Below, piece by piece: positions 14,968 through 45,080 of a stretch of 48,414 bases of DNA (positions are counted from its first letter, which is position 1; every line of letters begins with the position of its first letter). The notes beneath the pieces were generated by a model that saw nothing but the letters and a program-made list of their open reading frames with translations, had not been told where the DNA came from and did not search any database. Origin of the DNA: Ignavibacterium sp. (GTDB lineage Bacteria; Bacteroidota; Ignavibacteria; Ignavibacteriales; Ignavibacteriaceae). Location: positions 1,625,001 to 1,673,414 of the forward strand of contig CP070637.1 in assembly GCA_020354005.1 (NCBI GenBank). The letters run 5' to 3'. A program made the translations under genes and the position numbers.

Positions 14968-15669
14968 TTAATTAAAAATATTGTTTGCAATTGCATTAAA
15001 AATTAATTGTCCATCAGTATTTTTCAATACCGGATCGCAGCATCTCTCCGGATGGGGCATCATCCCAAGTACGTTACCATTCTTATTAATTATTCCGGCA
15101 ATATTTTCTACCGATCCGTTCGGATTATGTTTTTCAGAAACCTTACCTTTATCTGAGGAATATTTAAATACTATCTGGTTATTATCCTTTAGCTCATTTA
15201 GAGTATAATCATCAGCAAAATAATTGCCTTCTCCATGGGCAATAGGGATTTTCAACACATTTTTATCTTCAATTCCCCGGGTAAAATTACTATCAGTATT
15301 CTCTACAGAAAGATAAACATCTTTACATACAAAGTTTAGTGAAATATTCCTCAACAAAACCCCCGGAAGCAAACCGGCTTCCAGCAATATTTGAAATCCG
15401 TTGCATATGCCGATAACCGTACCTCCTTTATTTGCAAATTCAATAACCGATTTCATAATCGGCGAAAAGCGGGCAATTGCACCTGTTCGTAAATAATCAC
15501 CATAAGAAAATCCACCGGGAAGAATTATCACATCACTTTCTTTCAAGTCGTTTTCTTTGTGCCATAGAAAATGTACTTTAAATCCGAGTAATTTATTCAG
15601 TGCATAATAAGCGTCGTGATCGCAATTGGAACCAGGGAAAACAACAACACCAAATTTAAGTTCATTCAT
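14968..15669 (-). CDS. purQ: Phosphoribosylformylglycinamidine synthase, glutaminase subunit PurQ
   Basis: Supplies ammonia from glutamine to PurL in step four of purine synthesis. The 233-aa class I glutamine amidotransferase shows [28 protein letters not shown], the nucleophile elbow [11 protein letters not shown] (Cys89) and the His-Glu pair in [11 protein letters not shown]. The start ATG overlaps the purS stop by 4 bp (ATGA), so the two are translationally coupled. purL is not in the window; the separate purS/purQ arrangement means that a small PurL is expected elsewhere. Confidence 0.98.
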
Positions 15670-15917
15670 TTCACTTCTTCCAGAGTAAACTCATAATCTT
15701 CCATAATCGGATTGGAAAGAAGTTTGTTGCAATAAAGATTTACTTCCTTTTCAGCTTTGGATTTATCTTTAACATCAACATCGAACTCAATAAATTTTCC
15801 TATCCGTGTATTTTTAACATTGGTTAATCCAAGGTGATTTGCTCCAATTTCGATAGCTTTACCCTGCGGATCAAGAATAGATGGTCGTCGCTTGACAAGT
15901 ACTTTTGCCTTAAACAA
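15666..15917 (-). CDS. purS: Phosphoribosylformylglycinamidine synthase subunit PurS
   Basis: An 83-aa protein that bridges PurQ and small PurL in the FGAM synthase complex. Recognised by [20 protein letters not shown], the [18 protein letters not shown] segment and the C-terminal [17 protein letters not shown]. The length is typical. A strong ribosome-binding site (AAAGGAG on the - strand) lies just before the ATG. It follows pssA by about 46 bp on the same strand. Confidence 0.97.
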
Positions 15918-15963: not shown

Positions 15964-16677
15964 CTAAGCAGTTCGGGCTTTTATCAGGTAATAGATGTGG
16001 CGAAAAATACCTATTACGATTAATAAAACAAAAGTATAGAACAACCCTTTCGTGTAAGTGAACACAACTAACAACATTGCAATCAATAGAAAGACAAAAT
16101 GAAACGGTTTTTCTTTTATACCCTCTAATGAAAATCGTGGAAAGCTTTCGTACCTGATGTTGCTTATCATCAAATAGGATACAATAAATACCATAGGAAT
16201 AATCATATCTGAATATGGTTTTGGATATCCATTATTATAAAACGCAAGAACAAAGGATGCGATTGTTAAGGCTGCTGTTGGAATTGGCAATCCGAGAAAA
16301 AAGGATTTTTCAAATCCAACTAATTGGACATTGAATCTCGCCAATCTAAATCCTCCTGCAATTAAAGGTAATGAACTGAGAATTACACCAAAGTTATCAA
16401 ATTGATAAAAGTATGTTACGTACAATAAAAACGATGGTGCACAACCAAAGCTTACTATGTCAGATAATGAATCAAGCTCAACACCTAACTCGGAACTGGA
16501 TTTTGTAAGCCGTGCTACCAATCCGTCAAGTGCATCAAATACTGCTGCTATTATTATTAACCATGCTGCATAATTGTAATTACCGTTGCTTGCTGTTATG
16601 ATTGATAGAAAACCGCAAAACATATTCATTGCGGTAAAGAGATTTGGTATAACCGAAGGTGTGATTTGCAGACGCAT
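15964..16677 (-). CDS. pssA: CDP-diacylglycerol-serine O-phosphatidyltransferase
   Basis: Makes phosphatidylserine from CDP-diacylglycerol and serine in the inner membrane. The 237-aa polytopic protein carries the CDP-alcohol phosphatidyltransferase motif DG(X)2AR(X)8G(X)3D(X)3D at residues 51-73 (DGLVAR ... GVELDSLSD), preceded by the typical N-terminal PNLFTAMNMFCGFLSI. Subclass II (Bacillus-type) membrane PSS by appearance. It begins 1 bp after the psd stop; the adjacent Psd uses its product, so the pair converts CDP-DAG to phosphatidylethanolamine. Confidence 0.97.
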   Translation of the reverse strand: MRLQITPSVIPNLFTAMNMFCGFLSIITASNGNYNYAAWLIIIAAVFDALDGLVARLTKSSSELGVELDSLSDIVSFGCAPSFLLYVTYFYQFDNFGVILSSLPLIAGGFRLARFNVQLVGFEKSFFLGLPIPTAALTIASFVLAFYNNGYPKPYSDMIIPMVFIVSYLMISNIRYESFPRFSLEGIKEKPFHFVFLLIAMLLVVFTYTKGLFYTFVLLIVIGIFRHIYYLIKARTA

Positions 16678-16678
16678 A

Positions 16679-17329
16679 TTATTTGATTATCTCAAATAGA
16701 ATTGTTTCGCCTGCAGTTACATTTTGATCTTTTTCTACTTTTGGTTTCCAGTGCATTGGTGCAACAACATCCACACGACTGCCGAATTTTATCATTCCAA
16801 ACCTTTCACCGATCTTCACATCATCCCCTTCATTTAATTCGTTTACTATTCTGCGTGCTACAAATCCGGCAACCTGTGTAAAAAATATTTTTCCATTTGT
16901 GCTGGTAACTCCTATTTCCTGTCTTTCGTTTAAATCACTTGCCTTATCTTCGAACGCGGCTATATATCTTCCTTCAAAGTATTCAAGATAGTCTACTTTT
17001 CCTGTAATCGGAATTCTATTAACGTGAACATTCAAAGGCGACATAAATATTGAAACCTGATTGGCCTTACCATTTACAAATTTGTCATCAACAACTTCCT
17101 TCACAAACAACACTCTTCCATCAGCGGGAGAAACAACAACATCATCTTTTTGCGGAGGATTTCGTTCCGGATCTCTAAAAAAGTAAAGAGTGAAACATAT
17201 CAGCAGAACGGCAACAACAATCAGACTGATCTTGGCGATATTATTATTCAGGAAGATGGCCAATACAATGATTAGAAATGAAATTACGGCTGTAATACCA
17301 ATCGTCGTGTAACCGTATTTTGTAAACAT
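16679..17329 (-). CDS. psd: Phosphatidylserine decarboxylase, short pyruvoyl type
   Basis: Decarboxylates phosphatidylserine to phosphatidylethanolamine. The 216-aa form has two N-terminal membrane segments (residues ~8-50), FRDPERNPP, VSPADGRV, SIFMSPLNVHVNRIPITG and the self-cleavage site KFGSRVD, in which Ser184 would become the pyruvoyl cofactor. The long N-terminal part of E. coli Psd is absent, as is normal for this short class. It follows the PurC-like gene by 3 bp and precedes pssA by 1 bp. Confidence 0.97.
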   Translation of the reverse strand: MFTKYGYTTIGITAVISFLIIVLAIFLNNNIAKISLIVVAVLLICFTLYFFRDPERNPPQKDDVVVSPADGRVLFVKEVVDDKFVNGKANQVSIFMSPLNVHVNRIPITGKVDYLEYFEGRYIAAFEDKASDLNERQEIGVTSTNGKIFFTQVAGFVARRIVNELNEGDDVKIGERFGMIKFGSRVDVVAPMHWKPKVEKDQNVTAGETILFEIIK

Positions 17330-17332
17330 TTA

Positions 17333-18010
17333 TTATGTATTGGTTAAGTTAAGAAGAAAATCAGTGTACCTTCGCATCTCGCTTGAGGTATTTAATGAAT
17401 ATGGATTTGCCCACCCATTTTTATCCCCTTCTGGAAATACTTTTAAACTTAGAGGAGAAAAATCATCTACAAGGTAAATTTTATTATTATGCTTCCCAAA
17501 GCTGCAGGTGAATTCAGCTACCGTTTCATGTCTTCTTTCGAAGAATGCCTTTAGCACCGCATTGACTTTTGAGCAGATGCGGTTAATTACCTTAAGATCT
17601 TCTATTGCACAAAGATCGAACGCTATTAAGTGGCTCTCAGAGACAAGTGAATCTTTCGAAATTCCAAAGTGATATTCAAATATCGGCAGTTCAAGTTGCA
17701 ATCCTTCTTTTATAGAAAATATTTTTGATGTCCTTTTATCTGAACGGTTTAATATTTTTACTGAGAAGGGAAGCTGCCGGAATTTTAAATAAACCAATGA
17801 ATTTTTTTTATGATCTTTCACATAAACAGATGGTATGTGATATTCCTTCAAATAATCGTAAAAAAACTGGTTAATCGATACAAACTTTTGACCCAAGTGT
17901 TTGACCTTAACCCTCTTATTTTTCGTTGGGAAAAAATAATCAGGGTATTCAACCATCAGATAATTTTGATCATCAAAAGGTAAGTTGTTCTTTGTTTGTT
18001 CTGTTATCAT
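17333..18010 (-). CDS. Degenerate PurC (SAICAR synthetase)-like protein
   Basis: A 225-aa protein whose length, order and spacing follow PurC. It has YLMVEYPDYFF (PurC: LLVLEF), FFYDYLKEYHIPSVYV (PurC: LxEAGIPT), FSIKEGLQLELPIFEYHFG (PurC: LGIEEGxxLxxPxxE), VNAVLKAFFERR, EFTCSFGKHNNKIYLVDDFSP (PurC: DFKLEFG...DEFSPD). The catalytic features are altered or missing: the N-terminal glycine/lysine ATP loop (RGKxK) is absent because the protein starts after it, KGxxNN is not recognisable, the VVRNRAAGS segment has become KILNRSDKRTS, and SPDGSRLWD is SPLSLKVFP. No upstream in-frame start could restore the N-terminus. It heads the operon with psd, pssA, purS and purQ. Homology is inferred from the pattern; activity as SAICAR synthetase seems unlikely. 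Confidence 0.7.
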   Translation of the reverse strand: MITEQTKNNLPFDDQNYLMVEYPDYFFPTKNKRVKVKHLGQKFVSINQFFYDYLKEYHIPSVYVKDHKKNSLVYLKFRQLPFSVKILNRSDKRTSKIFSIKEGLQLELPIFEYHFGISKDSLVSESHLIAFDLCAIEDLKVINRICSKVNAVLKAFFERRHETVAEFTCSFGKHNNKIYLVDDFSPLSLKVFPEGDKNGWANPYSLNTSSEMRRYTDFLLNLTNT

Positions 18011-18096
18011 TAAATGAGTTTTGCAGGTAAATCCTTCTATAAGAAATTGCAGGTAGAAATTATAAAATTAAAGTATATAAAGTCAATCGATTATAT

Positions 18097-45007: not shown

Positions 45008-45080
45008 GGGCAGATAGCTCAGTTGGTAGAGCAATGGACTGAAAATCCATGTGTCGGCGGTTCAATTCCGTCTCTGCCCA
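45008..45080 (+). tRNA. tRNA-Phe (anticodon GAA)
   Basis: A 73-base cloverleaf folds completely: acceptor stem GGGCAGA/TCTGCCC with discriminator A, D-arm GCTC AGTTGGTA GAGC, anticodon stem ATGGA/TCCAT around loop CTGAAAA (anticodon GAA), variable loop GTGTC, T-arm GGCGG TTCAATT CCGTC. CCA is not encoded (ACTC follows). It is the only RNA gene recognised in the window. The integrase gene lies 162 bp downstream. Confidence 0.98.

Follow-up and report, generated by a model that had tools for sequence, protein, structure and literature searches.

The purC-like gene and its operon

The window, i.e., the whole stretch of 48,414 nucleotides from Ignavibacterium sp. that was analysed here, carries on its minus strand five genes in the order purC-like, psd, pssA, purS and purQ, with ybaB-recR located upstream in the divergent orientation (Table 1). 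These coordinates agree with the original prediction, in which a degenerate purC-like gene shared an operon with the four others and was separated from psd by 3 bp. Promoter-like matches, such as the one that precedes the first gene, were no more frequent than expected by chance (17 found versus 14.8 expected in a 3.6-kb stretch). No riboswitch was detected upstream of the purC-like gene when the whole window was searched against Rfam at gathering scores; the sole Rfam match in the window at that score is a tRNA at 45008-45080 (+). In some relatives that retain the purC-like gene, purS was not seen in the position after pssA.

Table 1. Position of the operon genes and of the features discussed in the text
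Feature	Coordinates in the window	Strand	Remarks
PurC-derived pseudoenzyme ORF	17333..18010	-	first gene of the operon; ATG start, 225 aa
psd, phosphatidylserine decarboxylase	16679..17329	-	PF02666; begins exactly 3 bp past the pseudoenzyme gene
pssA, CDP-diacylglycerol-serine O-phosphatidyltransferase	15964..16677	-	TIGR00473, above cut-off
purS, FGAM synthase subunit	15666..15917	-	fourth gene of the operon
purQ, FGAM synthase glutaminase subunit	14968..15669	-	fifth gene of the operon
promoter-like site, TTGACT-16-TATAAT	18059..18086	-	11/12 consensus match only; ~50 bp before the ORF
NRSDKR, codons N88-R93	17732..17749	-	in the place of the PurC RNxAxGS motif; checked by translation
codons of helix residues 144-160 (RICSKVNAVLKAFFERR)	17531..17581	-	best-conserved stretch; checked by translation

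The window protein is predicted to adopt the SAICAR synthetase fold

The window protein matches the Pfam SAICAR_synt profile (PF01259) with 58 bits (E 1.3e-15, residues 32-198), which is above the Pfam cut-off. Its score with the TIGR00081 purC equivalog profile, 36.5 bits, is far below the cut-off of that profile (189.9 bits). The AlphaFold2 model, computed from the window protein plus 71 related rows, has the PurC fold (pLDDT 89.6, pTM 0.86). The first 38 matches of a Foldseek search against the PDB were all SAICAR synthetases or PAICS. VIA-align, run on the predicted model, gave Z values of 26.5 for 3nua, the best match, and of 26.2 for the E. coli enzyme (2gqr), over 221 residues; the long-type enzymes of yeast and mycobacteria reached about 19-20. 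In addition, when the sequence profile of the family was compared with PDB sequences, eight matches were obtained, every one a PurC of 230-263 residues. According to the model, the window protein is thus a member of the SAICAR synthetase fold, as had been anticipated from the pattern of its chain, and the model lacking this fold that would have spoken against the original prediction was not obtained. A kinase-like function by way of the wider superfamily was also considered and was set aside, the Foldseek matches to inositol-phosphate kinases being weak (TMq 0.28-0.35) and silent on function.

The catalytic residues are replaced by a new signature

According to PMC3261824 (section 12), the substrate residues of E. 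coli PurC are K11, K13, Q69, R94, S100, D175, E179, R199 and R215; E179 contacts ADP, and K11 and K13 are given as CAIR contacts. The corresponding positions were counted in 51 family rows, using the E. coli numbering and excluding L074 (two Ns) and L084 (short). None of the five key residues R94, S100, D175, E179 and R199 is kept in 50 of the 51 members, and the remaining member keeps two. E179 is never found (0/51); D175 and R199 are likewise absent (0/51 each), E and K respectively standing at these positions in 44 rows; R94, S100 and K177 are each retained once. K11 is present in 3/51 rows, D191 in 23/51 and D196 in 1/51, and the K13 column, which is loosely aligned, holds a K in 17/51. 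The family therefore lacks both the ATP-side set (GKxK loop, E179) and the CAIR set (R94, S100, D175, R199). The original prediction of altered catalytic motifs was borne out, and that of a missing N-terminal ATP loop stood in part: the GKxK motif is gone, but at this end the chain has lost just a few residues relative to E. coli PurC.

The family has also acquired residues of its own. Its signature consists of NxxDKR and RICSKVNAVLKSFFERR. Within the former, N88 is found in 51/51 rows, D91 in 45, K92 in 40 and R93 in 43 (N95, D98, K99 and R100 in the E. coli numbering), and R144, K148, N150, R159 and R160 of the window protein are invariant across the 51 rows. Taken together, the residue losses and the new fixed residues indicate that the ATP side is gone and that the former CAIR side has been rebuilt rather than merely eroded.

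A long-type PurC is encoded elsewhere in the genome

Two PF01259 matches are present in the genome from which the window is taken: the window gene and a bona fide purC at C1:379806-380543 (E 9.9e-76), which provides the separate working copy that the original prediction had called for. That the window gene is itself a true SAICAR synthetase was rejected on the two grounds of lost substrate residues and of this separate purC. A PF01259 profile search of 97 genomes, the present one included, recovered the degenerate copy in 53, and in 47 of these 53 a true purC, full or partial, was recovered as well. Those without one are G027, G031, G046, G047, G048 and G054, and in G027, G031 and G047 the pseudoenzyme is the sole PF01259 match. 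Each of the 31 f2 genomes included in this search has a single match. In the long-type PurC rows, at least four of the five key residues are kept (15/15).

Two further observations concern the purine genes of these bacteria. In the present genome, PurH (AICARFT_IMPCHas) is matched at two separate places some 14 kb from each other, C1:444918-445823 (-) and C1:459758-460666 (+), versus at most one in the other 14 genomes searched. In G049 (genus g27), the purine genes are gathered in one cluster (G049:C260:14501-22771), in which one frame, of 474 aa, matches both PurC and PurE, and another, of 1020 aa, matches the PurL linker and, weakly, PurS; this cluster is a different purine set that was perhaps acquired.

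Descent of the window gene from a short-type operon purC

Relatives were collected by scanning 84,980 species genomes with one peptide pattern, and the best 80 of the 98 relatives were taken, so that the set is a sample and no complete count. Among these 80, the same slot outside the Ignavibacteria-type set is occupied by a short PurC (22 loci), which is followed by psd-pssA in every locus that is long enough; the L163 locus stops right after the gene. Eight of these slot PurCs keep all five key residues (L142, L143, L144, L145, L147, L150, L151 and L156, with LCP-89, Calditrichaeota and Tariuqbacter among their labels), and 14 are partly degraded, each keeping one to four. This division was made by eye and then borne out by the residue counts. 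Of the degraded copies, eight are labelled Calditrichota, Calditrichia or Caldithrix, or a spelling variant. R94 is kept in 3/14 of them, S100 in 2/14 and D175 in 3/14, with E179 in 12/14 and D191 in 13/14. Judging from these sequences, the CAIR side goes first in the degraded slot copies and E179, on the ATP side, stays. Two loci labelled Caldithrix sp., L146 and L149, carry separately degraded slot PurCs before psd-pssA, in which E179 is changed to Q and K; purS-purQ are absent after psd-pssA in L149, and the L146 locus stops 0.6 kb past pssA. Both genomes carry a long PurC within a frame of about 470 aa.

A quick IQ-TREE phylogeny was computed from 67 rows, with SH-aLRT as the only support measure; it includes 26 of the 51 family rows and six of the 15 long rows, and excludes the six very divergent members (DIV), SEC_L182 (wrong frame) and SEC_L187, the last being the same protein as OP_L143. 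The pseudoenzyme family forms one clade (SH-aLRT 100) nested within the clade of operon short PurCs (99), and the long-type PurCs are separate (100). The degraded copies appear to lie nearest to the family. The tree and the shared operon slot together identify the old operon purC as the ancestor of the window gene. The gene had originally been regarded as a paralogue; in the usual sense of the word it is not, as the working purC is of the long type, and the tree rules out that the gene arose recently from that PurC.

A second PF01259 match was found in 11/14 genomes with a degraded operon copy versus 4/8 with a canonical one, a trend that is in line with this descent but weak by itself; the second matches of G169 (weak, E 1e-25) and G179 (both copies E about 1e-51) were left unjudged. 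The median pI is 8.8 for the family (51 rows), 8.0 for the degraded (14) and 7.2 for the canonical (7) operon PurCs, and 5.8 for the long type (15). As these differences amount to a trend only, a strong membrane-binding charge of the family was not retained as an explanation.

The gene is linked to psd-pssA

The pseudoenzyme family is present in 78 of the 164 genomes of the order (73/80 f1 genomes, five f3 and no f2). The gene directly precedes psd in 52/52 fetched loci, in 6/6 very divergent loci and in the window, that is, in all 59 loci checked, which represent 59 of the 78 genomes having the family. Next after psd comes pssA in 51/52 loci, the psd of L062 reaching the contig end. The gap between the gene and psd has a median of 3 bp and is at most 20 bp in 51/52 loci; the medians are 0 bp for psd-pssA (n=51) and 21 bp for pssA-purS (n=45), and all three may be biased because starts were picked near the homologous start. 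Behind pssA, purS-purQ were not seen in L065, L074, L079, L081, L082 and L083; the L062 and L066 contigs are cut. The steady genomic partner of the gene is thus psd-pssA and not the purine genes, and this conservation, which the original prediction had proposed to survey, is the linkage by which an accessory protein of PssA-Psd would be recognised. The very divergent members (L197, L200, L201, L202, L206 and L207), which have no degenerate-copy PF01259 match, are still located directly before psd.

The gene is missing at 10/10 f2 psd loci, where ybaB-recR adjoins psd-pssA and where purS-purQ are found in 9/10; it is also missing from g8 (G012, G037) and from G050, in which psd-pssA are retained. 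These absences indicate that the lipid enzymes do not need the gene everywhere and, judged by them, the pseudoenzyme is helpful and not essential.

The gene is under purifying selection and is kept without the tested purine genes

Within the window's genus, 13 of the 15 comparisons of the gene are saturated at synonymous sites, and we therefore used other pairs and raw pN/pS. Over nine pairs, the pN/pS of the gene ranges from 0.09 to 0.33, similar to psd and pssA. This agrees with the original view that the gene is kept, and together with its conservation it rules out a chance ORF or a pseudogene. With its catalytic residues lost and the gene still under purifying selection, the family fits a pseudoenzyme of the SAICAR-synthetase-like superfamily.

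We then compared the distribution of the gene with that of the purine pathway in a set of genomes that are mostly MAGs. The comparison covered PurC, PurD, PurE, the PurL linker, PurS and PurH. PurD and PurE are both absent from five of the 80 f1 genomes, all of which retain the gene: G027 (96% complete), G047 (93%), G031 (99%), G053 (90%) and G107 (77%). They are also both absent from three f2 genomes (77-81% complete). G027, G047, G031 and G053 further lack the PurL linker domain, PurS and a true PurC; PurH is absent from G031 and G053 and present in G027 and G047. These four genomes (loci L065, L074, L082 and L197; genera g23, g27 and g10) are large, 3.1-3.7 Mb, and nearly complete. From their gene content, they appear to have lost the de novo purine pathway. 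PurS absence is weak evidence by itself, as PurS is absent from G017 despite the presence of PurH, the PurL linker and PurD. Between G027 and G047, the gene is 73% identical with a pN/pS of 0.20, comparable to psd (0.24) and pssA (0.21); the G031 and G053 copies are much more divergent. Conversely, by hand count, PurD is found in 71/79 and PurE in 72/79 f2 genomes, from which the gene is absent. A protein serving purine synthesis should show the opposite distribution, and this pattern counts against a purine role. The binding of a purine intermediate, which had been proposed originally, is therefore weakened, and the other part of that proposal, a repurposed protein, gains from the loss of the catalytic residues, the constraint on the gene and its retention where the tested purine genes are gone.

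Discussion

The reading that we favour, with moderate confidence, gives the PurC-derived pseudoenzyme an accessory, non-catalytic role in the PssA-Psd phosphatidylserine/ethanolamine module. Its ancestor was a short-type purC in a purC-psd-pssA-purS-purQ operon. SAICAR synthesis was presumably taken over by a long-type PurC encoded elsewhere in the genome, a separate lineage of the enzyme thus displacing the first, and the operon copy would then have lost first its CAIR/aspartate chemistry and next its ATP chemistry, while keeping the fold and gaining fixed residues of its own. The short gap to psd suggests that the pseudoenzyme is made in step with Psd through translational coupling, and it is the linkage that points to PssA-Psd as the partner; the adjacency, however, was inherited from the old operon and could reflect inertia. 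The pseudoenzyme would be cytoplasmic and slightly basic, and may serve as a scaffold or as a subunit that senses a ligand. Its new conserved charges suggest that a small phosphorylated ligand could be held, and not turned over, in the rebuilt CAIR pocket, where NxxDKR is found, with E in place of D175 and K in place of R199. A more specific and decidedly tentative version, which we regard as possible, is that bacterial phosphatidylethanolamine synthesis recruited a displaced purine enzyme as a dedicated subunit, regulatory or scaffolding, its old CAIR pocket reading a phosphorylated cytosolic ligand, and that the working stage, the stage with CAIR residues lost and E179 kept, and the fixed pseudoenzyme are all alive in the same slot.

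Other readings have to be weighed against an accessory role in the PssA-Psd module. PurC ancestry, the presence of purS-purQ in the same operon in most relatives and the charged residues kept in the rebuilt pocket would all suit a regulator that binds CAIR, SAICAR or AICAR and controls either purine synthesis or the FGAM synthase subunits that the downstream genes encode. Such a regulator is nevertheless unlikely: the gene is kept, and constrained in the tested pair, where PurC, PurD, PurE, the PurL linker and PurS are all missing; f2, in which PurD and PurE are widespread, does not have it; and it stays with psd-pssA in the six loci in which purS-purQ are not alongside. PurH leaves G027 and G047 some purine metabolism, with which a function connected to purine salvage or to the nucleotide level would be compatible. 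A general sensor of nucleotides (ATP/ADP/AMP, CDP or CMP) tuning phospholipid synthesis would combine the nucleotide-binding ancestry with the psd-pssA linkage, and short PurC structures have been solved with many nucleotides, according to their PDB titles. The partly degraded operon copies mostly keep E179, but the family itself has lost it entirely and has K11 in only three rows, which leaves this reading rather improbable.

The new fixed charges (D98 in 45/51, K99 in 40, R100 in 43, E175 in 44 and K199 in 44, E. coli numbering) could also be those of an enzyme that catalyses a changed reaction in the rebuilt pocket; we give little credence to this, given the state of E179 (0/51), D191 (23/51) and D196 (1/51). 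Equally little credence goes to a decaying relic or a translational leader, for which translation into psd would matter and the protein would not. The gap of about 3 bp to psd, the absence of the gene from f2, g8 and G050, and an identity between relatives that is lower than for purS-purQ in most comparisons would fit, but pN/pS values like those of psd and pssA and residues that are invariant across a deep family do not. Finally, the fold and a score above the Pfam cut-off are what a working SAICAR synthetase would show; with a score far under the purC equivalog cut-off, the substrate residues lost and a true purC present, we consider this highly improbable.

Metabolic enzymes are known to have given rise to pseudoenzymes. 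What gives this locus its unusual value is that intermediate stages survive, so that it constitutes a stepwise record of an enzyme turning into a pseudoenzyme in place. Because annotation based on Pfam would call such genes purC, pathway reconstructions can err, notably for G027, G031 and G047. If the link to lipid synthesis holds, the pseudoenzyme becomes a candidate for a new regulator of phosphatidylserine/ethanolamine synthesis in a group of bacteria that is large and has been little studied. The portions of the open-access literature that were searched, PMC3261824 and PMC9376930 included, contain no description of the gene or of a PurC-Psd link.

A published parallel is that of the Thermococci, which have duplicate purC-like genes with a possibly inactive second copy (PMC3261824, section 12). 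As in the window's genome, this copy occurs in a genome with another purC; in contrast, the two Thermococci genes both have purine genes nearby, one of them stops early at its C-terminus, and that section mentions no lipid-gene link. The long-type PurC shares its fold family with the pseudoenzyme, whereas the working copy here is a protein of 297 aa encoded away from the operon, with its catalytic residues retained. Short-type PurCs are alike over the whole chain (E. coli 2gqr, C. perfringens 3nua and P. horikoshii 3u54; Z 25.3-26.5 over 212-221 residues) and, like the window protein, carry an FG motif just behind the long strand 162-174; they differ from the pseudoenzyme family in the catalytic residues, with an identity of about 20%, and the pseudoenzyme gene sits among lipid genes. 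Nearest of all in the tree are the operon short PurCs from outside the Ignavibacteria (L142-L164; LCP-89, Calditrichaeota, KSB1 and others), which occupy the same slot before psd-pssA and have a KVNAxLKSFFDRR-like helix in common with the pseudoenzyme family, but in which all five key residues (eight copies) or one to four of them (fourteen copies) are still held.
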